Shown one piece after another: positions 7,288 through 62,445 of a DNA stretch of 64,000 nucleotides. A program made the position numbers and the translations under genes. The stretch is from Bacillota bacterium (GTDB taxonomy: Bacteria > Bacillota > DSM-12270 > Thermacetogeniales > Thermacetogeniaceae): contig JABLXW010000004.1 in the NCBI GenBank assembly GCA_013177945.1, positions 62,001-126,000 of the forward strand, in the 5' to 3' direction. Position 1 is the stretch's first letter; the number at the start of each line of letters is the position of its first letter. The notes under the pieces are model-generated. The model did no database searches. It was not told the origin of the DNA and saw nothing but the letters and a program-made list of their open reading frames with translations.

Positions 7288-7956
7288 CTACTTCTTGGAA
7301 CCCCTCCGGTTTCGCCCCACCTTCCTGAATCCAAGCAGCTGGAGGCCCCCCGGCCTGAGCCTGATTTCCCAGATATTCTTCAGCGCTTCCAGATCCTCCC
7401 GGGATTCGGCATCAATTACACCGAGAGCACCGCAGCTTGAGCACCTGAGCTCGACCCGTTCCGCAAAGATTTCCACCTCAAGCTGAAGGTTGCCGCACTG
7501 GCAGGAAAGATTCCCTTCTTCCGCAATTTTATGCAGAGAGTCCAGGATTTCATACATGATTTCTGGATTGGCAAAATAATCCGTAAAACCCAGGTCCTCC
7601 GCCATTTCCCGCAAGGACCGCTCCTGGTTGGCAATACATTTTTTCACCTGTTCCCGGGGGCCCAGAAACCCAACCTCGAGACCGGTCTCCTCGCAGGTCA
7701 GGCCGCGCACCTGGGAGGTCCAGATTTCCCTCAAGGAATACTGGAAAAGGTGCTTCCCTTCGCACATCAAGCACTCCAGTTGAAAGTAAAATACCTTGCG
7801 GTCCCTGGTGCTGATCAGGAGAAGGGAGGCCCCGCAGGTGCAGGTGAAACGGATCGTTTTCTGAGCAGAAAAAGAAAAAAGGGACAGGGTATGGTACTGG
7901 ATTTTTCCGCAGCTCGGGCAACGAAGTGCGAGTGCAGTTGTTGTCGCAACGAGCAT
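7288..7956 (-). CDS. Zinc-ribbon (CpXC-like) protein of unknown function
   Basis: 222 residues with four paired-Cys elements: CPSC near residue 13, CTC near 39, LECLMC near 60, and a C-terminal ribbon CQC ... CSSC at about 150-175. The N-terminal arrangement resembles CpXC-type zinc domains. The middle (NQERSLREMAEDLGFTDYF) is helical. No signal or membrane segment. The start ATG is preceded by GAGGAGGTAGGCGAA. It sits between spo0F and fba, an insertion into the conserved pair. A nucleic-acid or protein-binding role is only an inference from the ribbons. Confidence 0.8.
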   Translation of the reverse strand: MLVATTTALALRCPSCGKIQYHTLSLFSFSAQKTIRFTCTCGASLLLISTRDRKVFYFQLECLMCEGKHLFQYSLREIWTSQVRGLTCEETGLEVGFLGPREQVKKCIANQERSLREMAEDLGFTDYFANPEIMYEILDSLHKIAEEGNLSCQCGNLQLEVEIFAERVELRCSSCGALGVIDAESREDLEALKNIWEIRLRPGGLQLLGFRKVGRNRRGSKK

Positions 7957-8052: not shown

Positions 8053-8469
8053 TTATGTCGAAGCAGGCTGTCCTGCCTCTACCGGCCGGAAATAAGGGGA
8101 GACCGCGAGGGCCTGCCGGATCATCTTCCTCAGATCGGCAAGAGCAAAGGGCTTCACCAGGTAACCGATCACCCCTTTTTCCAGGGCGCGCCGGAACAGC
8201 AGCCCATCGCCCCAACCCGTCATCAGGATCACCGGAACCCCGAGCCGCTGCTTCTCCAGCTCAACGAGCACCTCCCACCCCTGCCAGCCCGGCAGGTTCC
8301 AGTCAAGCAGGAGCGCGGCAGGAGGTTTCCGTTTAATTTCAGGGAGGACATCCTTGCCATGCGCCAGCACCCGAACCTGATAACCATCCTGCTCAAGCAC
8401 CTCTTTCAAGAGGAAGCGCACCCCCGGGTGGTTGTCTACAACCAGCAAAAATGCTCCTGAAAAACTCAA
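8053..8469 (-). CDS. spo0F: Spo0F-like single-domain response regulator
   Basis: 138 residues, a lone receiver domain with no output domain. Phosphoacceptor Asp in LLLDWNLPGW (about 55), switch Thr in LMTGW and the conserved Lys in LVKPF are present. The acidic pair near the N-terminus is DN (LLVVDNHPG) rather than the usual DD, so one metal-coordinating acid is replaced. In Bacillus, Spo0F relays phosphate from sporulation kinases through Spo0B to Spo0A. Position next to fba and pyrG is that of Bacillus spo0F, which supports the name over a generic CheY-like call. A second possible TTG start at 8448 (AGGAGC upstream) gives a more usual N-terminus. Confidence 0.8.
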   Translation of the reverse strand: MSFSGAFLLVVDNHPGVRFLLKEVLEQDGYQVRVLAHGKDVLPEIKRKPPAALLLDWNLPGWQGWEVLVELEKQRLGVPVILMTGWGDGLLFRRALEKGVIGYLVKPFALADLRKMIRQALAVSPYFRPVEAGQPAST

Positions 8470-13720: not shown

Positions 13721-15397
13721 TTACATCCTCTCCGGTGCTGAAACTCCTAAAAGCTTCAGGGTGTTCCGCAAAGCAATGCGGGATGCGTTTACGAGCACAA
13801 GACGTGCCGCGCGCAAAACAGGGTCCTCCGTGAGGACGCGGCAGGTTGTATAAAAACCGTGAAAAAGGGTGGCCAGTTCGTACGCGTAATGGGCAAGACG
13901 GTGAGGTTCGAGGTGGGTTGCCGCAAAAAGGATCTCCCCCGGCAGTTCAGCGATCTTCCGGATCAGGGCAAGCTCCGCGGGGTCCCGAAGAACCTCCAGA
14001 ACCGCCTCCTCCGCCCGGGGCGGAGGGGCGTCACTCTGGCGCAGGATGCTGCAGATCCGGGCATGGGCGTACTGGATGTAGTAAACCGGGTTTTCACTGG
14101 ACTGCTCCCGGGCCAGGTCAAGATCGAAATCAAGGTGGCTGTCCGCGCTCCGCATCACAAAAAAGTAGCGCGCGGCATCCCGCCCAACCTCCTCCATAAG
14201 TTCCCTTAAAGTTATGTACTCCCCGGTCCGCTTCGACATCCGGACCAGCTCGCCGCCTCTAAAAAGCCTGACGAGCTGCATGATAATTACTTCGAGCCGG
14301 TCCGGGTCTAACCCCAGGGCGCGCAGCGCCCCCTTCAAGCGGGAGACGTGGCCGTGGTGGTCTGCTCCCCAGATGTTGATAACCCGGCTGAAGCCCCGCC
14401 GGAACTTATTCTGGTGGTAGGCGATGTCGGCTGCAAAGTATGTGGGGGTCCCGTTGCTCCGCACCAGGACCTCGTCCTTTTCTTCCCCGAAAAGGGTGGA
14501 ACGAAACCAGAGCGCGCCCTCTTCTTCGTAAAGATACCCCTTCGCCTGCAGCTCCCTCAAGACCTCTTCTACGGCCCCGGAGTCGTGAAGGGACTGCTCG
14601 GAAAACCAGACATCATAAACAACCCCGAAGTCGGCAAGATCCCGTTCCATTTGCGCCAGTTTTTCCTTGAGGGCGTATTTAATCAGCCTCTCCCGCCTGA
14701 GATCCGGGTCAATCCCCACATACCTGTCGCCAACCTGCGCAATCAAGCCCTTCATGCTTTCAATCAGATCTTCACCGGGGTAGCCGTCTTCCGGAAAGGG
14801 CACATCATAGCCCAGCAACTGGAGATACCTGGCCTCAAGGGACAGCCCGAAGGTTTCAATTTGATTTCCAGCATCATTGATGTAAAACTCCCGCGTCACG
14901 TCGTAGCCTGCTGCGGTGAGGATGTTGGCAAGAGTATCTCCCAGGGCGGCGCCCCGGGCGTTCCCCATGTGCAGGAGGCCGGTAGGGTTCGCGCTGACAA
15001 ATTCCACCTGGACCTTCTCCCCCTGCCCCAGGTCGGAGCAGCCGTAGCGTTCATCCTGGGCCTCCACCTCAACCAAAACCTCATAAAGCCAGGAGGGATC
15101 CAGAAAAAAGTTGATAAACCCCGGCCCCGCCACCTCCGTTCGGGAAAGGTAAGCCACCTCACCGGCAGGAAAAAACTGCAGGAGTGCCTGCGCAACGGCG
15201 CGCGGGGGCCGCCCCAGCTCCCTGGCAAGAAGCAAAGCCAGGTTTGTGGCAAAATCCCCGTGCGCCCTTTCGCGGGGCACCTCAAGGGCAAAAGAGGGCA
15301 GGGACTCCCAGGCAATTTCCCCTTGTTCCCGCGCCCCCCGTGCCGCCCTGACCAATCCCTGATAGATCTCACTTCTGATCCGCTCTAAAACCCCCAT
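13721..15397 (-). CDS. argS: Arginyl-tRNA synthetase
   Basis: 558 residues from ATG 15397 (AAGGAG six bases upstream). Class I synthetase: N-terminal Add1 domain, HIGH-like signature SANPTGLLHMGNARGA at about 130, the KMSK-equivalent region RMSKRTGEYITLREL at about 360, then the DALR anticodon-binding domain ending in ALRNTLKLLGVSAPERM. Charges tRNA-Arg. First gene of block 1, with its own promoter, followed 20 bases later by the delta-subunit-like gene. Confidence 0.97.
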   Translation of the reverse strand: MGVLERIRSEIYQGLVRAARGAREQGEIAWESLPSFALEVPRERAHGDFATNLALLLARELGRPPRAVAQALLQFFPAGEVAYLSRTEVAGPGFINFFLDPSWLYEVLVEVEAQDERYGCSDLGQGEKVQVEFVSANPTGLLHMGNARGAALGDTLANILTAAGYDVTREFYINDAGNQIETFGLSLEARYLQLLGYDVPFPEDGYPGEDLIESMKGLIAQVGDRYVGIDPDLRRERLIKYALKEKLAQMERDLADFGVVYDVWFSEQSLHDSGAVEEVLRELQAKGYLYEEEGALWFRSTLFGEEKDEVLVRSNGTPTYFAADIAYHQNKFRRGFSRVINIWGADHHGHVSRLKGALRALGLDPDRLEVIIMQLVRLFRGGELVRMSKRTGEYITLRELMEEVGRDAARYFFVMRSADSHLDFDLDLAREQSSENPVYYIQYAHARICSILRQSDAPPPRAEEAVLEVLRDPAELALIRKIAELPGEILFAATHLEPHRLAHYAYELATLFHGFYTTCRVLTEDPVLRAARLVLVNASRIALRNTLKLLGVSAPERM

Positions 15398-15435
15398 CGC
15401 CAACTCCTTCAGCCTGAAATTTTTTTCGCTTTTCT

Positions 15436-15465
15436 ATTATCTGGCATGAAAAACCTTTTATGCAA
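15436..15465 (-). promoter_or_regulatory. Putative sigma-A promoter of argS
   Basis: Minus strand TTGCAT (15460-15465), 18-base spacer, GATAAT (15436-15441), about 40 bases before the argS start. It lies just after the end of the histidine kinase gene. Confidence 0.5.
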
Positions 15466-15486: not shown

Positions 15487-16563
15487 CTATCTCAACGGGA
15501 GATGGATGACAACCCTGCAGCCTCGATCCGGGTTATTTTCAATTTTAATCGTTCCACCATGGTTTTGAACAATTGCCCGGGAAATGTAAAGCCCCAGGCC
15601 GGTCCCCGTCTCTTTCGTGGTAAAGAAGGGCTCAAAGACCTGGGCCTGAATCGCCTCTGGAACCCCCGGCCCCGTATCCCGGACCGCAATCTGAACCCCA
15701 TCCTCCTCCCGGTCCAGCTCTACCGCAACCCCGATTTCCCCTCCCTCCGGCATCACCTCAAAAGCGTTGGTAAAAACATTTAAAAGCACCTGTTTGAACT
15801 GCTCTTCATCCAGGGAAACCGGCGGCAGGTCCGGCGCAAAGCATGTTTTGACAGCAATCCTCCGGCGTCCCCACTCGCTTCCCAGCAGCTTGACGACGCT
15901 TTCGATCAGGCTTTCCAAACGGCAGGGCTTGCGCTGGGGGAGGCCGGGTTTCGCCAGACGGAGAAAGTCCCCGATAATGGAGTTTACGCGCCTCAAAGCA
16001 TCCAGCATAATATCCACATACTCGACGCGGGGCGTCCCCTCCAGCTCTTTCTTGAGCAGCTGCAGGAACCCTCCCACCGCAGTCAGGTGGTTCCTGATTT
16101 CATGAACCGCCCCTGCCGCCAGCTGGCCCATGATCGCAAGGCGCTCGGCCCGGATCACCGCCTGTTCCAGCTCATTCTGGTGCCTGGCGTCCCAGAGAAC
16201 GGCCATTGCCCCTACCCTCTCCCCGTCTTCGGCAACCAGGGTATGGGTGCTCACATAGGCGGGAAAAGGGCAGATAAAGGGGAACAATGCCTCCGGAGGA
16301 ACCCGGCCGAATTCCTTTCCGGTGGCCAGAGTAACCAGCAACGGGTGCTCCCCCGGGAACTCCTTCTCCCCAAAAAGCTCCCGAAGATCGCGCCCCAGGA
16401 CCTCTTGCCCGGCAATCCCCGCCAGTTCTCCAAGAAAACGGTTCAACCCGACAATCTTCTCCCACCGGTCGATGATGAGCACCCCTGCCGGAAAACCGTT
16501 TAAAACCTCGTGAAGCGTGGGTCGCAGCAACTGATGGTATCCCAAGAACGGTTCCTCCCTCAT
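15487..16563 (-). CDS. PAS sensor histidine kinase, soluble, sporulation-kinase-like
   Basis: 358 residues, no membrane segment. N-terminal PAS domain (about 20-130, VLNGFPAGVLIIDRWEKIVGLNRF), then HisKA with phosphoacceptor in GAVHEIRNHLTAVGGF at about 155, and HATPase with N box NVFTNAFEVMPEGG (about 265), G1 DTGPGVPE, F box FEPFFTTK and G2 GTGLGLYIS. The HEIRN form is typical of NtrB-like kinases and sporulation kinases. It is the last gene of a five-gene operon with two KaiC-like ATPases, a V4R protein and a winged-helix protein, and no response regulator is adjacent. Spo0F, seven kb away, is a possible but unproven partner. Confidence 0.9.
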   Translation of the reverse strand: MREEPFLGYHQLLRPTLHEVLNGFPAGVLIIDRWEKIVGLNRFLGELAGIAGQEVLGRDLRELFGEKEFPGEHPLLVTLATGKEFGRVPPEALFPFICPFPAYVSTHTLVAEDGERVGAMAVLWDARHQNELEQAVIRAERLAIMGQLAAGAVHEIRNHLTAVGGFLQLLKKELEGTPRVEYVDIMLDALRRVNSIIGDFLRLAKPGLPQRKPCRLESLIESVVKLLGSEWGRRRIAVKTCFAPDLPPVSLDEEQFKQVLLNVFTNAFEVMPEGGEIGVAVELDREEDGVQIAVRDTGPGVPEAIQAQVFEPFFTTKETGTGLGLYISRAIVQNHGGTIKIENNPDRGCRVVIHLPLR

Positions 16564-16572
16564 TTTTCCCCG

Positions 16573-16851
16573 CTAACCCTCAAAATAAGCCCTGATCAGC
16601 TCCCCGTGTCGCAAACGGTAAACAGTATACGGGCCGCTCCCGTTCTTCTCCAGAATCCCGATCTTCGCCAGCATCGCGGCGGCAGCAGCAACATCCTCAA
16701 GCGGACGGTGGAGGCGCCGCGCCAGACCTGCAGCGGTATCTCTGGTATGAGGATTCGCCTGAAAAAAGGTCAGGAGTTCGATGCGAATAATGCTCCCCCT
16801 GACCCCCCCTTTTTCCGGGAGAGAATAGTGCTGGTCAGACAAGGGGCTCAC
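16573..16851 (-). CDS. Small winged-helix protein
   Basis: 92 residues or fewer. IIRIELLTFFQANPHTRDTAAGLARRLHRPLEDVAAAAAMLAKIGIL is a helix-turn-helix layout and KNGSGPYTVYRLRH the wing strand pair. The start overlaps the end of the V4R gene by 17 bases and the stop is nine bases before the kinase, so it is part of the same transcript. It may bind DNA or another operon product. A TTG a few codons in (after GGGAGTGA) is an alternative start. Confidence 0.7.
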   Translation of the reverse strand: MSPLSDQHYSLPEKGGVRGSIIRIELLTFFQANPHTRDTAAGLARRLHRPLEDVAAAAAMLAKIGILEKNGSGPYTVYRLRHGELIRAYFEG

Positions 16852-17854
16852 TCCCTACCGCCTGCGCTTCACTTTCATCAGGCAAAGCGTGGAATTCGCA
16901 GTAGTCCCCCTCCAGCGACTCGCACCTCATTTCTTCGCACAGGATGGGACGCCCAAGAATAACGGTTAAATAGGCGGAGAACATCCCCCGGAGCAGGTCG
17001 CAGACAACCCGCGGCGACCGGTAAAGCTCGCCGTACTTTCTGATTGTCGCCACTTCGAAGGAATTGTAGCACCTGATCACAGCCCTCCCGGCCTCGGGTT
17101 CCAGGAAGATTAGCTCCACCCGGGCCAGGCCGCAGTTTTTAACCTCTTCGAAGAGGGCTTCGAGGGCTTCGAGGGGAGTGCTGTAATAGCTTTTCGCCTG
17201 CCGGGCAACCGTGAAGGCGGACTGGTAGCCTGCATCGTAAAGCACGGTCTTGAGGATATGGGGGGCGTACTCTTTTATCGCAACAAGGATCGAGTTGTAG
17301 GTCTCCTTGGGCAAAAGGATCGCCCTTTCTCCCGCAATCTTTAAAAGATCCCCTTCGCGGGTGACGATTTCCGTCTTCAGGCGCCTGGCGGGGAAAATCC
17401 GGCCGCGGCAAGAATCTGCCTCCACATCGATTTCCACCGCCGTAGAATACTCGACTCCCAGCACCTGCTGGAGGGCGGCCTGGAGCGCACCCAGGCGGGG
17501 GCAGTAAAAGAAAAGCTCCTCTTTTTCTGCCCCCCGGCAGAAATCCTGGTAAACGCAGCGGCTCCGGCTCAAGTGCACCAGAACGCTGTCCCCCTCTTCC
17601 TCCAGATGGTAGGCGCTCGCCCGCAAGAAACCCTCGCGGTCGAGGACGTTCAAATAGGCTTTGCAGATATCTACAGGGCGCCGGCTGGACAGCTCCAGCT
17701 TTTTCCCGTACTCGGCCAGGACCCGCTCCCCGACGCCGCGGGTCACCTCCTCCAGCCAGTACTTCCCGCTGAAAGGAATCGCAGCAACCGTTTTGCTCAG
17801 CGTCAAATAAAGGTAATTCAAGACCTTCCGGTAAATTTCCACGCTTTCGTCCAC
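16835..17854 (-). CDS. V4R-domain (hydrocarbon-binding-like) sensor protein
   Basis: 339 residues, cytoplasmic. The C-terminal 150 residues are a V4R domain: SPRVVCDLLRGMFSAYL, then a Cys-rich close GRPILCEEMRCESLEGDYCEFHAL. The N-terminal half seems to be a diverged second copy, with CVYQDFC and VEADSCRGRIFP at about 100-155. V4R domains bind small hydrophobic ligands in some regulators and a tetrapyrrole intermediate in others; the ligand here is unknown. Start GTG 17854 has CTGGAGGTG upstream, four bases after the KaiC-like gene. Its place between ATPases and a kinase suggests a sensory role. Confidence 0.78.
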   Translation of the reverse strand: MDESVEIYRKVLNYLYLTLSKTVAAIPFSGKYWLEEVTRGVGERVLAEYGKKLELSSRRPVDICKAYLNVLDREGFLRASAYHLEEEGDSVLVHLSRSRCVYQDFCRGAEKEELFFYCPRLGALQAALQQVLGVEYSTAVEIDVEADSCRGRIFPARRLKTEIVTREGDLLKIAGERAILLPKETYNSILVAIKEYAPHILKTVLYDAGYQSAFTVARQAKSYYSTPLEALEALFEEVKNCGLARVELIFLEPEAGRAVIRCYNSFEVATIRKYGELYRSPRVVCDLLRGMFSAYLTVILGRPILCEEMRCESLEGDYCEFHALPDESEAQAVGSEPLV

Positions 17855-17857
17855 TGC

Positions 17858-18574
17858 CTACACCTCCAGTTCTGTTGCAACGAGGATTCCGAAAACGGGG
17901 CTGATCCCGAACATATAGGGGGTGGAACTGAATTTCCCGCTCCGGACCTTCCCCACCTGCAAAATCCGAACCGGCCGCGTTTCCGTACCGCCGAACTTCA
18001 TTTTCAGGATTACGTTGTAAAGGTGGCTGGCGATGGTCATCACCCTGTCCTCAAGCACCCCGTCCACAAAGATGTCGAGGGTGAGGATTTCGTTTTTCCG
18101 GAGGTATTTCAAACGGCTCCGGTGAAATTCCAGAATCTCTGGAGGGTCAAAGGGAGTGAAGATGGTGCTCAGGCTGTCCACAACAAGCCGGATGCGCCGG
18201 CCGGCATAGCGCCTGATAAGCTCTCTTTCCAGGGCGAAATATTTATCAAGGCTCCGCTGATCGGCGATGTGAAATTTTTCGGAACTGGCCTCCTCTTCGT
18301 AGGCATCCACAAAGATCAAGCGTTCGACCTCTTCGTAGGCCCGGGTCCCCACCCTGAAGGTCCCCAGGTGCTGGCGCATCACGGCCGGAGGCTCGTCGCA
18401 GGCGACATAAATGCAGACATCGCCGCACCGGAGCCCCTCTTTGATGAATTCTCCTGCCAGCACCGTCTTTCCCACACCGGTGTCGCCGTGCACCATGATC
18501 TGCGACCCGTAATTCATGCCTTTAGAAATAAGCCGGTCCAAACCTTCGACGCCAAAATACGCCCTCGACTTCAC
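17858..18574 (-). CDS. Single-domain KaiC/RAD55-like ATPase
   Basis: 238 residues, one RecA-fold domain. Walker A VHGDTGVGKTVLAGEF near residue 30, Walker B IRLVVDSLSTIF near 145. The residues at the KaiC catalytic Glu pair position are DE (YVACDEPP) rather than EE. I chose GTG 18574, nine bases after AGGAGG; a TTG at 18583 would overlap the upstream ATPase. Bacterial KaiC homologues outside cyanobacteria are signalling ATPases of mostly unknown role. Operon with the two-domain KaiC homologue and the V4R protein. Confidence 0.88.
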   Translation of the reverse strand: MKSRAYFGVEGLDRLISKGMNYGSQIMVHGDTGVGKTVLAGEFIKEGLRCGDVCIYVACDEPPAVMRQHLGTFRVGTRAYEEVERLIFVDAYEEEASSEKFHIADQRSLDKYFALERELIRRYAGRRIRLVVDSLSTIFTPFDPPEILEFHRSRLKYLRKNEILTLDIFVDGVLEDRVMTIASHLYNVILKMKFGGTETRPVRILQVGKVRSGKFSSTPYMFGISPVFGILVATELEV

Positions 18575-18576
18575 TC

Positions 18577-19968
18577 CTACCAACCTCCTACCCGGGGAAA
18601 GACTTGGACTCCGTTTTTCGTGATCTCCATGAGATGATTGCCGGTGGCATGACTGACTCCCCGCAACTTGTAAAGCTCAAGATAGCGCAGGCGCCTGTTG
18701 TGGAACAGGCTGGATTTGAGGAAAATGCTCCCCTGAACCAGGGACTGGACAATATCCAGCTGCTCACCGGGAATCCCGGTTCCAGTCGGATAGAGAAACA
18801 GGCTTGTGCACCCCAGATTATTGAGATAGGTCACCAGATAGAAGAGTTTTTCCCGGAGCACGAAGGGATCCCGCAGGCGGGTGATTAAGGCGGGCAAGGT
18901 GTCGACCACGACCCGTACGATCCGGTGCTCCCGGATGATGCTTCCCAGCCGCACGAGCAGTTCGTCGAAATCCACATCCACCAGGGGTGCGAAGAGCAGG
19001 TGAACCATTCCCTTCTGGGCGAGATCTGCCAGGTCCCAATCAAAGGCCGCGGCATGGGCCCGGACTTTCTGGGGGGTTTCCTCCAGCGAAACAAAGAGCC
19101 CTTTTTCCTGCTGGGCCAGCGCCCCCCGGACCAGGAATTCCAGGCCCAGAACGGTTTTTCCGGTCCCGGCCTCTCCTGCAACGAGAATGCTTACACCCCG
19201 CGGGAGCCCGCCCTCCAGGAGTTCGTCCAGGCCCCGGACCCCCGTCTTTAACAGGGGCACTGCAGCATAATCTTCCCCGGGTTCCAGGAGCAGGGGACGC
19301 AGGGAAAAAACCTGAATTCCTTCTTCACTTATCTTAAAGCTGTGCCGCCCGGAAAGATGGGGCTGCCCCCGGCTCTTGATGATTTCCACGGTGCGCTGGC
19401 GCTGGAGCCCCCCGTCTGCCCCGTACTGGAGCCGCACGACAACATCCACCAGAAACTCCTCGAAACTGTAAAAATCCCCCTCTTCCTGCTCCTGCTCCTT
19501 CACAAGCATCGAGATCAGTTCGAGCCGGCGCAGTCCGTTGCAAAAGGCATACACCGCCTGGCGCAGCGCCAGCGGATTGTCCACAACCTGGCGGAAATGC
19601 GAGACGCTGTCAACCAGCACCCGGCGCGCCCCGATCTCCTTCACGGCCTCCTCCAGCAGACTCGATTCCGGCCGCAGCACAACCTCCGGAGAAGTACAGA
19701 TCACCCGGAGTTTATTCTGTCTCTCCAGGGCCTGAAGATCCCAGCCGAAATTCAAAGCATCTCTGTAAAGGGAGGCCGGAAACTGCTCGAAGGTCAGAAC
19801 AACACCCGGCTCCTCGAACTTGAGGGCGCCCCGGTAGATGAACTCTACTCCAAAGGTGGTTTTCCCTGCTCCGGGAATTCCCTCCACAAGGATGATGCTC
19901 CCGGCCAGGATTCCACCGTAAAAAAGTTCATCAAAACCGGCAATCCCGGTGCGAATCTTCGTCATCAT
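18577..19968 (-). CDS. Two-domain KaiC-like ATPase
   Basis: 463 residues, two tandem RecA/KaiC domains (about 1-225 and 230-463), as in KaiC. Walker A motifs VEGIPGAGKTTFGVEF (about 28) and VAGEAGTGKTVLGLEF (about 265); Walker B strands RRVLVDSVSHF and VRVVVDTLPALI. The catalytic-Glu position reads EQ in domain 1 (LTFEQFP) and EE in domain 2 (VSLEETP). It is shorter than cyanobacterial KaiC (about 519), no KaiA or KaiB is in the window, and a clock function should not be assumed. First gene of the operon; ATG after AAGGGGGGAGC, 223 bases downstream of rlmH. Confidence 0.9.
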   Translation of the reverse strand: MMTKIRTGIAGFDELFYGGILAGSIILVEGIPGAGKTTFGVEFIYRGALKFEEPGVVLTFEQFPASLYRDALNFGWDLQALERQNKLRVICTSPEVVLRPESSLLEEAVKEIGARRVLVDSVSHFRQVVDNPLALRQAVYAFCNGLRRLELISMLVKEQEQEEGDFYSFEEFLVDVVVRLQYGADGGLQRQRTVEIIKSRGQPHLSGRHSFKISEEGIQVFSLRPLLLEPGEDYAAVPLLKTGVRGLDELLEGGLPRGVSILVAGEAGTGKTVLGLEFLVRGALAQQEKGLFVSLEETPQKVRAHAAAFDWDLADLAQKGMVHLLFAPLVDVDFDELLVRLGSIIREHRIVRVVVDTLPALITRLRDPFVLREKLFYLVTYLNNLGCTSLFLYPTGTGIPGEQLDIVQSLVQGSIFLKSSLFHNRRLRYLELYKLRGVSHATGNHLMEITKNGVQVFPRVGGW

Positions 19969-20191
19969 GCTCCCCCCCTTATCCGATCCTGCAAAATCCC
20001 GAAATCACGCAGCCATAAAGTTGTTCGACGCAAAAGGTGTTTTTCCTTTATCTTTGACAACCTTTTCCGCGCCTTTCCCCCGAGAAACCCGATTAAAACA
20101 GGATCCCGCCAGGCACCCGCGCATTTGAGAGATTTTCAGCCTTTGTTTTGCCTGTTTCGGCGCTTTTTGCCTGACAACAAACGTACCGGTG

Positions 20192-20665
20192 CTAGTAATG
20201 GTAGGGTTCCCCCCGCAGGATGCGGAAGGCGCGGTACAACTGTTCCAGCAAAATCACGCGGGCGAGCTGATGGGGAAAAGTAAGGGGGGACAAAGAAAGG
20301 ACAAGATCTGCTCCTTCTAAAAGAAACGAGGGCAAACCCAGAGTTCCCCCAAGCAAAAAGGCAGGCTCTGCCTTTCCGGCATCAAGCAGGGAACCGAGCC
20401 AGGCGGCGAATTCTTCAGAACTGAACAGCCTTCCCTGCGGAGCAAGGGCGACCTTAAAAGAATGGGGAGGGATTCTTTTCTGAAGGCGTTCACCCTCTTT
20501 GATTTTCACCTGCTCCCGCTCCTTTTGGCCGGGAGGAACAGGCTCGTCAGGAACCTCAACCAGGGTCAGGGAGGTGTACCTTTTCAAGCGCCTGCCGTAC
20601 TCTGCCTGGGCCATCCGGTAAAAGGGCTCTTTAAGCCTGCCCACCGCTCCGATCCAGAGGTGCAT
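20192..20665 (-). CDS. rlmH: 23S rRNA (pseudouridine1915-N3)-methyltransferase RlmH
   Basis: 157 residues from the ATG at 20665 (AGGAGTGAG seven bases before it), the family length. SPOUT knot methyltransferase that methylates helix 69 of the 50S subunit on assembled 70S ribosomes using SAM. Signatures: MHLWIGAVGRLKEPFY, LAPQGRLFSSEEFA, the SAM loop FLLGGTLGLPSF, and the C-terminal LSLSPLTFPHQLARVILLEQLYRAFRI. Follows a methyltransferase gene by eight bases. Confidence 0.96.
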   Translation of the reverse strand: MHLWIGAVGRLKEPFYRMAQAEYGRRLKRYTSLTLVEVPDEPVPPGQKEREQVKIKEGERLQKRIPPHSFKVALAPQGRLFSSEEFAAWLGSLLDAGKAEPAFLLGGTLGLPSFLLEGADLVLSLSPLTFPHQLARVILLEQLYRAFRILRGEPYHY

Positions 20666-20673
20666 TAAGTGTC

Positions 20674-21318
20674 TCACTCCTGTTTTTCGCTGATCAGGTG
20701 GTGAATGTCGATTTCATAAAAAGGGAAATAGGGGTGATCGACGAGGACCGGAATGTGGCTCTGCTTTTCCTTCATCCCCTTTTGCCGGACGAGTTCCCGC
20801 AAAAAATCGTGCGTCACCTTCCGCCCCGGGTGGGCAAAAAGAAGCTGGCCGCCGGGAATAAGGTTGCGGTCGATAATTTTCGCCACATAGGGATTAAGCT
20901 TGGGGTTGTAAAGAACATCGGAACCGATGATCCAGTCAAAACGGGTTGTCAACGAAAAATTTCGCCAGTCTGCCAGAACAAAGTTGATGCCCTGAATCTC
21001 GTTCTTTGTCGCATTGCGGGCCGCAAATTCCAGGGCCTCGGGCTTGTAGTCGGTCATGGTGACCCTGCCGCCCTTCAGGGCGGCCACCAGACCCGGCAAC
21101 CCCATGCCCGCCCCCAGCTCTAAAACCGTTGCCCCTTGAAAATCCACGCTCTCCCAGATGTACTGGGCGAGGCCGCGCGCCGCCGGCCAGAGCTCGGCCC
21201 AGTACGGGATCTGATCATCATCCTCCGGGTCCGTAATCAACTGCTCCATCTCGGCAACAACTTCCAGAGAAAGGGTTAAACCCGGGAGGCAGAATTCAAG
21301 CTCCCTCCTGCTGATCAT
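20674..21318 (-). CDS. SAM-dependent methyltransferase (METTL21/FAM86-like)
   Basis: 214 residues from ATG 21318 (GGAGG six bases upstream). Class I Rossmann methyltransferase: motif I VLELGAGMGLPGL near 85, acidic motif II MTDYKPEAL, LADWRNF and the DVLYNPK region after motif IV. The PYWAELWPAARGLA stretch before motif I is the mark of the Methyltransf_16 (protein-lysine methyltransferase) group. Substrate unknown; a neighbouring ribosome modification gene (rlmH) is suggestive only. Confidence 0.82.
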   Translation of the reverse strand: MISRRELEFCLPGLTLSLEVVAEMEQLITDPEDDDQIPYWAELWPAARGLAQYIWESVDFQGATVLELGAGMGLPGLVAALKGGRVTMTDYKPEALEFAARNATKNEIQGINFVLADWRNFSLTTRFDWIIGSDVLYNPKLNPYVAKIIDRNLIPGGQLLFAHPGRKVTHDFLRELVRQKGMKEKQSHIPVLVDHPYFPFYEIDIHHLISEKQE

Positions 21319-22602: not shown

Positions 22603-23853
22603 TCAGAGAGTGCTCTCCACCCGGGCTCCCAGGCCCCTAAATTTTTCGACCACCCTCTCATACCCCCGCGCGATAAGTTCCGCCTGACAGATCTCCGTTT
22701 CTCCTTCGGCGGCAAGCCCTGCCAGAAGGAGGGCAGCCCCGGCCCGGAGGTCAGATGCCTTCACCTGGGCCCCGAAGAGCTTCACCCCGCCCTCGACCAC
22801 GGCAGTGTGCCCCTTGACCCTGATCCGGGCTCCCATCCGCTTCAGTTCGTCAGCCACCTGGAAGCGGTTTTCAAAAACGTTCTCCACAATCAGACTGGTG
22901 CCGCGGGCCAGGCAGAGGAGAGACATCATCGGTGACTGCAGATCGGTTGGGAAGCCCGGGTAGGGGAGGGTCTTAATGTCGGTCGCCCGGAGTTCTCCTT
23001 TATTTCTTACGGTTAAAAAGTCTTCCCCGGGCTCAACCTCGAGGCCCACATCCTCCAGCTTTGCGACGACAGACTGGAGGTGGGCAACGATGACGTTTTC
23101 AACGGTAACCTCTCCCCCCGCCACCCCGGCCGCAATCATGTAAGTGCCAGCCTCGATGCGGTCCGGGATCACGGTGAATCTGGTGCCCCCCAGTTCCCGG
23201 ACCCCCTCGATCCTGATGAGGTCCGTCCCTGCGCCCCGGATGCGAGCCCCCAGGGCGTTCAGGAAGCTTGCAAGGTCCACAATCTCCGGCTCCTTGGCGG
23301 CATTTTCGATCACCGTGGTTCCGGGAATTCCGACGGCAGCCATGATCAGGTTCTCCGTCGCCCCCACACTGGGGAAATCCAAATAAACCCGGGCTCCCTG
23401 CAGCTGCCGGGCCCGGGCCTTGATCATACCGTGTTCCAGGGAAACCTCAAAGCCTAAAAGGTGGAGGCCCTTTAAGTGGAGATCCATCGGGCGGGATCCG
23501 ATGTTGCAGCCGCCGGGCAGGGGAATTTCCGTCCTCCCCTCCCTGGCAGCAAGCGCACCCAAAAAAAGGTTGGAGGCACGGAGCTTTTTGGCAAGTTCAT
23601 AGGGGGGTGCGCCCTCAATCCGGTCGGGCCAGGTCAGGGAAACGGTATTCTGACCTGTCCAGGCAACCCTTCCCCCAAGGGCGCGGACAATCTCCAGCTG
23701 GGTATCTACATCAGAAATGTGCGGAACATTATCCAAAACGACCTCGCCCCGCGCCAGGGCACTTGCGGCGATCAGAACAAGGGCGGCATTCTTTGCGCCA
23801 CTGATCCGAACCCTCCCCCGGAGGGAGCAACCCCCTTTAATCAGCAGCTTCAT
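22603..23853 (-). CDS. murA: UDP-N-acetylglucosamine 1-carboxyvinyltransferase
   Basis: 416 residues. First committed step of peptidoglycan: transfers enolpyruvate from PEP to UDP-GlcNAc. KGGCSLRGRVRISGAKNAAL at the N-terminus, the active-site Cys in LPGGCNIGSRPMDLHLKGL at about 115 (the fosfomycin target), and AGTYMIAAG and YPGFPTDLQSPMM in the second lobe. In Bacillus this gene sits between tal and glpX; here it is about 17 kb away in a wall-gene run. Confidence 0.97.
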   Translation of the reverse strand: MKLLIKGGCSLRGRVRISGAKNAALVLIAASALARGEVVLDNVPHISDVDTQLEIVRALGGRVAWTGQNTVSLTWPDRIEGAPPYELAKKLRASNLFLGALAAREGRTEIPLPGGCNIGSRPMDLHLKGLHLLGFEVSLEHGMIKARARQLQGARVYLDFPSVGATENLIMAAVGIPGTTVIENAAKEPEIVDLASFLNALGARIRGAGTDLIRIEGVRELGGTRFTVIPDRIEAGTYMIAAGVAGGEVTVENVIVAHLQSVVAKLEDVGLEVEPGEDFLTVRNKGELRATDIKTLPYPGFPTDLQSPMMSLLCLARGTSLIVENVFENRFQVADELKRMGARIRVKGHTAVVEGGVKLFGAQVKASDLRAGAALLLAGLAAEGETEICQAELIARGYERVVEKFRGLGARVESTL

Positions 23854-23907
23854 TTCGATTGAATCCTCCAGTCGCCGGTACCAGTAAATGGCCCCTTTCG
23901 TAACTTT

Positions 23908-24135
23908 TTATATTCTCCCCGCTCTTGGATATTCCTTCCCTTCCAGCGGCTTCTTTTCCCCTTCAGCCGAAATGCCGGCCTCTGCCTGCCGCCGGCACAC
24001 CTGGTCTGAAAGGGGAGCCGCCTGGCTAGAAACCGGAAGGCAGCACCCGGCGCGCCGTGCCAAACCGGTTATTCCAAAAACGGCAGCGAGAAAAAGGAGA
24101 ATCCCCAGAATAAGCGCGAAGATGCGCGGTGCCAC
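23908..24135 (-). CDS. Small single-span membrane protein, unknown
   Basis: 75 residues from GTG 24135, preceded by AAGGGGTGAG; a TTG at 24168 extends it by 11. One membrane helix at residues 4-20 (FALILGILLFLAAVFG), a Cys pair after it (RAGCCLP), then a charged tail. It lies 45 bases after the gluzincin peptidase gene on the same strand, so it may be co-transcribed. No family recognised; it could be non-coding, but codon use and the ribosome site favour a gene. Confidence 0.5.
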   Translation of the reverse strand: MAPRIFALILGILLFLAAVFGITGLARRAGCCLPVSSQAAPLSDQVCRRQAEAGISAEGEKKPLEGKEYPRAGRI

Positions 24136-61812: not shown

Positions 61813-62445
61813 CTATCCTTCTCCGGGCTCTGGAGCAGCCCCGGCCTCCCCGGCCGCCTCCTCCTCTTCAGAAACCTCAAGGACAGGCGGCACCACAAGG
61901 ACGATGATGCTCTCCGGATCATCCACAATTTTAACGCCGGGCGGCACCTGAAGGTCTGCCACGGTCAACTGGTCTCCGATGCCCAGGCCGCTGATATCGG
62001 CATCAATCCGCTCGGGCAGCTGGGTCGGCAGGCAAGAGACCGTAACCTCCCGGAGCATGTGCTGAAGCACGCCCCCTTCTTTGACTCCCGGCGCCTCCCC
62101 TACCAGGTGGACGGGGATTTCTGTTTCGATTTCCTCTGTCAGCGAAACCTGGTAAAAGTCCACATGCAGCAGTTCCTGGCGCAGGGGTTCCCGCTGGACC
62201 TCCCGGATCATCACGAGGTAGGATTTCGGGGCCTCCCCATCAGAAATCTCAAGGTTAATCAAAGTGCCCCCGATGCTGTGGGTGGCGAGGATGTTGGCCA
62301 GGGCCTGGGTGGGCACCTGAACGAGAAGGTTTCCCGCCTCCTTTCCGTAGACAACCCCCGGCAGCATCCTCTCGCGGCGCAGCTTTTTCAGGCTTCCCTT
62401 GGTTCCGCGCGCCCGCGGCCGGGCGTGCAGGGTGATGCTTTCCAT
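61813..62445 (-). CDS. rplY: Ribosomal protein L25 / general stress protein Ctc
   Basis: 210 residues, the long TL5/CTC form. N-terminal L25 domain (1-90, ITLHARPRARGTKGSLKKLRRERMLPGVVYGKE) binding 5S rRNA, then the TL5 C-terminal domain (95-185, VPVHL-type sheet: EIPVHLVGEAPGVKEGGVLQHMLREVTVSCLP). Stop TAG overlaps the pth start, so translational coupling is likely. The last 25 residues are acidic. Confidence 0.95.
   Translation of the reverse strand: MESITLHARPRARGTKGSLKKLRRERMLPGVVYGKEAGNLLVQVPTQALANILATHSIGGTLINLEISDGEAPKSYLVMIREVQREPLRQELLHVDFYQVSLTEEIETEIPVHLVGEAPGVKEGGVLQHMLREVTVSCLPTQLPERIDADISGLGIGDQLTVADLQVPPGVKIVDDPESIIVLVVPPVLEVSEEEEAAGEAGAAPEPGEG

Follow-up and report, generated by a model that had tools for sequence, protein, structure and literature searches.

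The window analysed here is a stretch of 64,000 nucleotides (positions 62,001 to 126,000 of contig JABLXW010000004.1, assembly GCA_013177945.1) from a bacterium of the family Thermacetogeniaceae, phylum Bacillota. Five abutting open reading frames (ORFs) occupy its minus strand between argS (13721-15403) and rlmH (20192-20677). An earlier note on this DNA had described them as an operon of KaiC-like, V4R, winged-helix and kinase genes, and ORF and Pfam analysis confirmed the five genes at 15487-19968 (Table 1). They are named KaiCC, KaiC1, V4R, wHTH and HK below. Adjacent genes overlap or nearly touch, with junctions of -7 nt (KaiCC/KaiC1), 3 nt (KaiC1-V4R), -17 nt (V4R/wHTH) and 9 nt (wHTH-HK). 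The last three values are those given in the earlier note. Its gap of 2 bases between KaiCC and KaiC1 assumes a later GTG start and gives way to the 7 nt overlap if KaiC1 starts with the TTG at 18583. Purifying selection acts on each of the five: the ratio of non-synonymous to synonymous substitution rates (dN/dS) relative to a congener is 0.07-0.12 for KaiCC, KaiC1, V4R and wHTH and 0.18 for HK. Because the gene order is also conserved in relatives, the set is more than a chance assembly. A defence system was rejected as an explanation, since PADLOC gave just weak P-loop matches to mad8. The region upstream of the operon had no Rfam match to a structured RNA.

Table 1. Features of the window discussed in the text
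Feature	Position	Strand	Basis and remarks
KaiCC, double-domain KaiC-like ATPase, 463 aa	18577..19968	-	Pfam KaiC twice, E 1e-105; PDB KaiC matches
KaiC1, single-domain KaiC-like ATPase, 241 aa	17858..18583	-	Pfam KaiC once, E 7e-27
V4R sensor protein, 339 aa	16835..17854	-	Pfam V4R; MopR profile comparison; fold match PoxR/MopR/DmpR
Small winged-helix protein (wHTH), 92 aa	16573..16851	-	AlphaFold model, winged-helix matches; conserved
Soluble PAS-HisKA-HATPase histidine kinase (HK), orphan, 358 aa	15487..16563	-	Pfam HisKA, HATPase, PAS
-35 element of sigma-H-like promoter, AAAGGAAAA	20041..20049	-	Matrix score 21.0; conserved in relatives
-10 element of sigma-H-like promoter, GTCGAACAA, 11-nt spacer	20021..20029	-	Conserved in relatives
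Divergent Spo0F-like receiver	8053..8469	-	Best PDB matches Spo0F; candidate but doubtful partner

The order KaiCC-KaiC1-V4R-wHTH-HK is kept in 12 genomes of the window's family (Thermacetogenium/Syntrophaceticus-like), with the same housekeeping genes on either side. The full set is also present, in other genomic surroundings, in two unrelated families represented by genomes G053 and G388; the G053 cassette has a TAG within KaiCC and a kinase that ends early. A fourth lineage (G094 and G129) carries a hybrid kinase of HK-REC-Hpt architecture, wHTH, KaiCC, KaiC1 and a V4R domain fused to a substrate-binding domain. The earlier note had named two weak points of its proposal, a lack of homologous operons elsewhere and independent transcription of the genes. 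Gene-neighbourhood comparison found intact cassettes in other families, and a single conserved promoter-like element lies ahead of KaiCC, the first gene. As the note had put forward, the five genes form one real and conserved operon, whose signalling system has apparently not been characterised.

The KaiC1 profile, run on a sample of 398 genomes of the phylum, matched 14 of them at E < 1e-80, each time within a cassette-type gene set, and gave one further weak match (E 1e-23) in a longer ORF. The V4R profile identified the same genomes with the exception of G129, whose fused form was seen in the locus scan alone; beyond these it picked up one decayed copy, a relative of half length in G117 and a small number of distant V4R proteins. 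The wHTH profile also matched loci where KaiC and wHTH genes accompany GAF/HD-GYP/LuxR-type regulators (G122, G355 and, without LuxR, G086), a locus with such regulators and no KaiC gene in view (G127), and one where KaiC and wHTH genes accompany a receiver (G038). The cassette is degraded in several genomes: in G005 the kinase is absent and KaiCC broken, G013 lacks KaiC1 and a portion of V4R and its kinase is broken, and in G019 the kinase and V4R remnants are left. In G012 (L107:8149-9722) wHTH and a split kinase remain, KaiCC, KaiC1, V4R and rlmH being gone from the locus. Neither V4R nor KaiC1 found a match in four family members (G003, G010, G011, G014).

The promoter-like element is a two-part sequence starting 81 nt upstream of the KaiCC start. 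Relatives share the motif RnAGGAwWW, a spacer of 11-12 nt and RnnGAA(T) upstream of KaiCC, which is the sigma-H pattern; the window's -10 element has a C in place of the last T of GAAT. Sites were scored with a matrix trained on 30 SigH promoters of C. difficile (table in PMC7438776). SigH of family member G006 (gene at about 520 kb) is 74% identical to B. subtilis SigH and the sigma-H promoter language should therefore carry over. The element was found upstream of all 15 cassettes with readable upstream sequence. Its score is 14.6-25.3 in the 11 family members among them and 17.0, 20.8, 23.6 and 17.5 in G053, G388, G094 and G129, respectively; in the last two genomes the site precedes wHTH, which is there the first gene past the kinase. 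It is the single best sigma-H-like site of the locus, both strands considered, in 9 of the 15 loci. Dinucleotide shuffles of the upstream region (n=500) matched the score 0-1 times in 13 of the 15 cases, the others being G015 (43/500) and G013 (5/500), and across 800 kb of G006 the window's score occurs at a rate of 1e-5 per position. When 13 genes of the neighbourhood were compared as a control, sigma-H-like sites in nearly all relatives were found just for KaiCC, murA and a gene for a 222-aa protein of unknown function (the lone low KaiCC value, at L056, comes from a gene truncated at a contig end), and none of 102 upstream regions of nine other neighbouring genes scored 15 or more. The LuxR-type variant of G355 has a site of 27.4 ahead of KaiCC, the top of its locus. 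No sigma-H-like site was found in G012, where wHTH and HK are left and the site has been lost. Judged from these sequences, the operon is probably transcribed by RNA polymerase carrying sigma-H, a prediction that would tie the module to the transition state and to sporulation initiation. A conserved TGTCGAA upstream of KaiCC was considered as a Spo0A box and rejected, because GGCGAAT stands there in one member and CGTCGAAC in the window, and the two-part sigma-H pattern with its 11-12 nt spacing accounts for all members.

The kinase points in the same direction. Verified Spo0 kinases are orphans, often with a PAS domain, and have specificity residues such as TAGFQL in KinA and KinE (PMC6136694). 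HK has no adjoining receiver gene and no membrane segment in its domain layout, it keeps the phosphoacceptor H154 and the ATP-site motifs in alignments, and its specificity residues are TAGFQL, those of KinA and KinE. Among the seven kinases of the HisKA class in the genome, the class to which this count is confined, it alone combines orphan status with KinA-type residues; the remaining likely orphan reads AVGNQL. The corresponding residues are TAGFQL and TAGFQI in the congeners G001 and G002, TAGFQL in G053 and TVGFKL in G388. HK resembles KinA-KinE and the clostridial orphan kinases in its PAS-HisKA-HATPase architecture, its sigma-H-like promoter and, in the window, its TAGFQL residues, but differs from them in being the last gene product of a KaiC-V4R operon and in belonging to a family where Spo0F and Spo0B are largely missing.

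The earlier note had suggested that the kinase output might be directed toward Spo0F. A Spo0F-like receiver gene does lie near the operon, between alr and fba. Its acidic pocket has a D-to-N replacement in the window; the gene is frameshifted in the draft genome of G002 and intact in G001. In the other cassette-bearing genera examined, the pyrG-fba locus has no such gene, and Spo0F as a general target was rejected on that absence; the receiver, found in the window's genus alone, may be a decaying relay component. No canonical Spo0B gene lies between rpmA and obg in any of ten family genomes checked; G053 and G388 have one at that place. Proteins of the membrane with a SPOB_a domain were rejected as Spo0B, since they have full GHKL ATPase motifs and are not encoded between rpmA and obg. 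These membrane kinases, found at L141, L142 and L143 in a family without canonical Spo0B, adjoin a small membrane protein at L141 and L142. Set against the distribution of Spo0B and Spo0F, the kinase residues resemble those of KinA in genomes that retain relay proteins and diverge in genomes that have lost them. The receiver specificity positions of the window's Spo0A are NEFIEYD, close to NEFIDYD in the direct-type Spo0A of C. acetobutylicum (PMC6136694). Because of this closeness and the missing relay proteins, direct action of the kinase on Spo0A is favoured for most of the family. Of 28 genomes tested, 27 have Spo0A and the one without it is a 410-contig draft; the relative S. schinkii forms endospores (PMC5113046). 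The suggested link toward sporulation is supported more strongly than first proposed, by specificity residues like those of KinA and by the sigma-H-like promoter; its Spo0F branch is not supported as a general rule.

The explanation that these observations support best is that the operon acts in the initiation of sporulation or in the transition state, and we give it an even chance of being correct. Several points weigh against it. The kinase residues vary in other genera of the family (SAGFQL, SLGLQL, SSGIQL, AAGYQL, TTLSQL). Several family members without the cassette, or with a broken one, still keep Spo0A, so that the cassette is not required for keeping the Spo0 pathway. G053 and G388 may have gained cassette and promoter jointly by transfer. 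Sigma-H targets in C. difficile extend beyond sporulation to division and metabolism (PMC7438776), and the operon may be connected with stationary phase in a broader sense. The same abundance of non-sporulation targets would suit a module produced in stationary phase under sigma-H with a kinase that targets a receiver outside sporulation, either stand-alone or elsewhere in the genome, with wHTH perhaps as the main output. In its favour, the genome has other stand-alone receivers, GAF/HD-GYP/LuxR regulators accompany related wHTH-KaiC loci, and the kinase residues drift within the family. Against it, the KinA/KinE residues TAGFQL are retained by the window's genus and by the Spo0B-bearing G053, and Spo0A is present in all hosts save the one draft genome. 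We regard this non-sporulation module as possible, at well under an even chance.

The V4R protein is the presumed input of the system. Its match to Pfam PF02830 is just above the cut-off (32.1 bits vs 31.0). The alignment of relatives has ten invariant cysteines, and a profile comparison with MopR and DmpR places the invariant C285, E308, C311 and C319 on the Cys/Glu/Cys/Cys positions of the MopR sensor, which bind zinc in MopR. The structural model, of moderate confidence (pLDDT 65), resembles the sensor domains of PoxR, MopR and DmpR with Foldseek E values down to 2e-8. Its N-terminal half, to which no family could be assigned, repeats a similar order of helices and hairpins; together with the half-length homologue in G117 this makes a tandem arrangement of the protein likely. 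The cassette V4R shares with the aromatic sensors MopR, PoxR and DmpR the fold and the aligned invariant residues but is a stand-alone protein with an extra N-terminal half and without a fused AAA+ activator or DNA-binding domain. In the cassettes of family f61 (L068:2075-3865 and L098:4698-6479) V4R is joined to a substrate-binding domain of the SsuA/NMT1-like type, which may give a hint of the ligand.

In the two KaiCC domains and in KaiC1 the Walker A and B residues vary little or not at all; the catalytic pair is E-Q in the first KaiCC domain and E-E in the second, and KaiC1 has a conserved GDTGxGKT, an invariant C-D-E and a Walker B motif. KaiCC is a double KaiC that has both Walker A motifs and the paired glutamates of CII, its nearest PDB relatives are KaiC proteins, and the operon also encodes a histidine kinase. 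These features recall the cyanobacterial KaiC and SasA proteins and raise the question of a timekeeper, an hourglass or oscillator in which KaiCC would drive the kinase as KaiC drives SasA. We consider this highly improbable. The earlier note had seen no KaiB, and none scored above the cut-off in 13 cassette-bearing genomes including the window's own, in a search that detected the S. elongatus control. The S431/T432 positions of CII are Gln/Ser in KaiCC (Gln/Ala in G015) with no conserved pair, KaiCC has no C-terminal tail beyond the last strand, and the kinase has a PAS domain in place of SasA's KaiB-like sensor; an additional single-domain KaiC and a V4R partner further set the cassette apart. 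A Kai clock was rejected on the KaiB result and the S431/T432 replacement. The cassette would rather work like the signalling hubs of KaiC-like ATPases proposed for archaea (Makarova et al. 2017, as cited in PMC5847659), with V4R as input and His-Asp phosphotransfer as output. In the hubs, as that citing paper outlines them, KaiC-like ATPases likewise take part in signal transduction together with sensor, receiver and output domains; the differences here are the endospore-forming Bacillota hosts, the fixed five-gene cassette, the sigma-H-like promoter and the sporulation-type kinase.

The wHTH protein matches no curated Pfam family above cut-off. Its AlphaFold model (pLDDT 79) resembles winged helices such as those of Zalpha and ArsR proteins (best E 2e-3), and the Zalpha match is no evidence of Z-DNA binding. 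That wHTH adjoins KaiC genes having varied outputs, and that V4R is an input domain in transcription regulators such as MopR, PoxR and MsvR, would be expected if the V4R and KaiC proteins regulated transcription through wHTH as a ligand-controlled repressor or activator and the kinase were merely co-transcribed. This arrangement is unlikely in our view, as kinases occur in all four cassette lineages and wHTH stays paired in G012 with the kinase after loss of KaiCC, KaiC1 and V4R. The persistence of that pair suggests that wHTH and HK are functionally tied. In G117 (L099:8558-9372) wHTH adjoins a PAS-DHp kinase fragment lacking an ATPase domain, the half-length V4R protein being encoded elsewhere (L195). 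Elsewhere in the Bacillota, loci L101, L102 and L103, together with L100 (no KaiC gene in view), have related wHTH genes beside GAF/HD-GYP/LuxR-type regulators, mostly with KaiC-like genes too; the sigma-H-like site ahead of KaiC in L103 is very strong.

The following sequence of events can be envisaged for an operon that acts in the initiation of sporulation or in the transition state. As growth ends, the five genes would be transcribed as one operon by RNA polymerase carrying sigma-H. V4R would bind a small hydrophobic or a redox/metal-linked ligand, and KaiCC and KaiC1 would form ATPase ring assemblies that integrate the V4R signal with the ATP/ADP state. This KaiC/V4R assembly would set the activity of the PAS histidine kinase, so that ligand binding or an ATPase state may control the kinase, as the earlier note had supposed. 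The phosphoryl group would then pass to the sporulation initiation pathway, directly to Spo0A in most of the family and possibly via Spo0F in the window's genus, with wHTH serving as a transcriptional arm or an adaptor. Of this, the sequences document the gene set with its order and conservation, the active-site residues, the fold and metal-site residues of V4R, the promoter-like element, and the orphan status and specificity residues of the kinase; we infer the use of sigma-H, complex formation, ligand, direction of control and target. More tentatively still, and with doubt prevailing, the cassette could be a KaiC-based, V4R-ligand-gated checkpoint that times sporulation initiation in syntrophic and related anaerobes, KaiC rings made under sigma-H controlling the main sporulation kinase.

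The cue that times sporulation in Clostridia is a long-standing open question, the inputs of the kinases being mostly unknown. An open-access literature search on KaiC with V4R, histidine kinases or Spo0A, with subscription papers mostly outside its coverage, found no description of such a combination. To our knowledge, no use of KaiC-family ATPases in endospore formation has been described, and we know of no described Bacillota system composed of KaiC, V4R, wHTH and kinase. If the proposed role is correct, KaiC-family ATPases would be joined to the Spo0 pathway, and KaiC-type signalling, found in cyanobacterial clocks and proposed for archaeal hubs, would extend to a bacterial developmental switch. 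Spore-forming anaerobes would have an unrecognised input to the sporulation decision through a defined sensor, V4R, with an identifiable ligand, a question that can be tested on five co-oriented genes.

Three further sigma-H-like sites of the window deserve mention. The one ahead of argS (15427-15458, minus strand, score 22.4) is weaker in congeners and absent in other genera, and is probably not conserved. The murA gene (22603-23853) has a conserved sigma-H-like promoter at 23907-23938 (minus strand), found in 9/9 relatives. The gene of the 222-aa protein noted in the promoter control (7288-7956, minus strand), a protein of no Pfam family, lies between fba and the Spo0F-like gene. A sigma-H-like promoter (site 8020-7992) precedes it in 18/18 upstream regions scored, some genomes being counted twice, and it is a candidate for an unknown transition-state gene.

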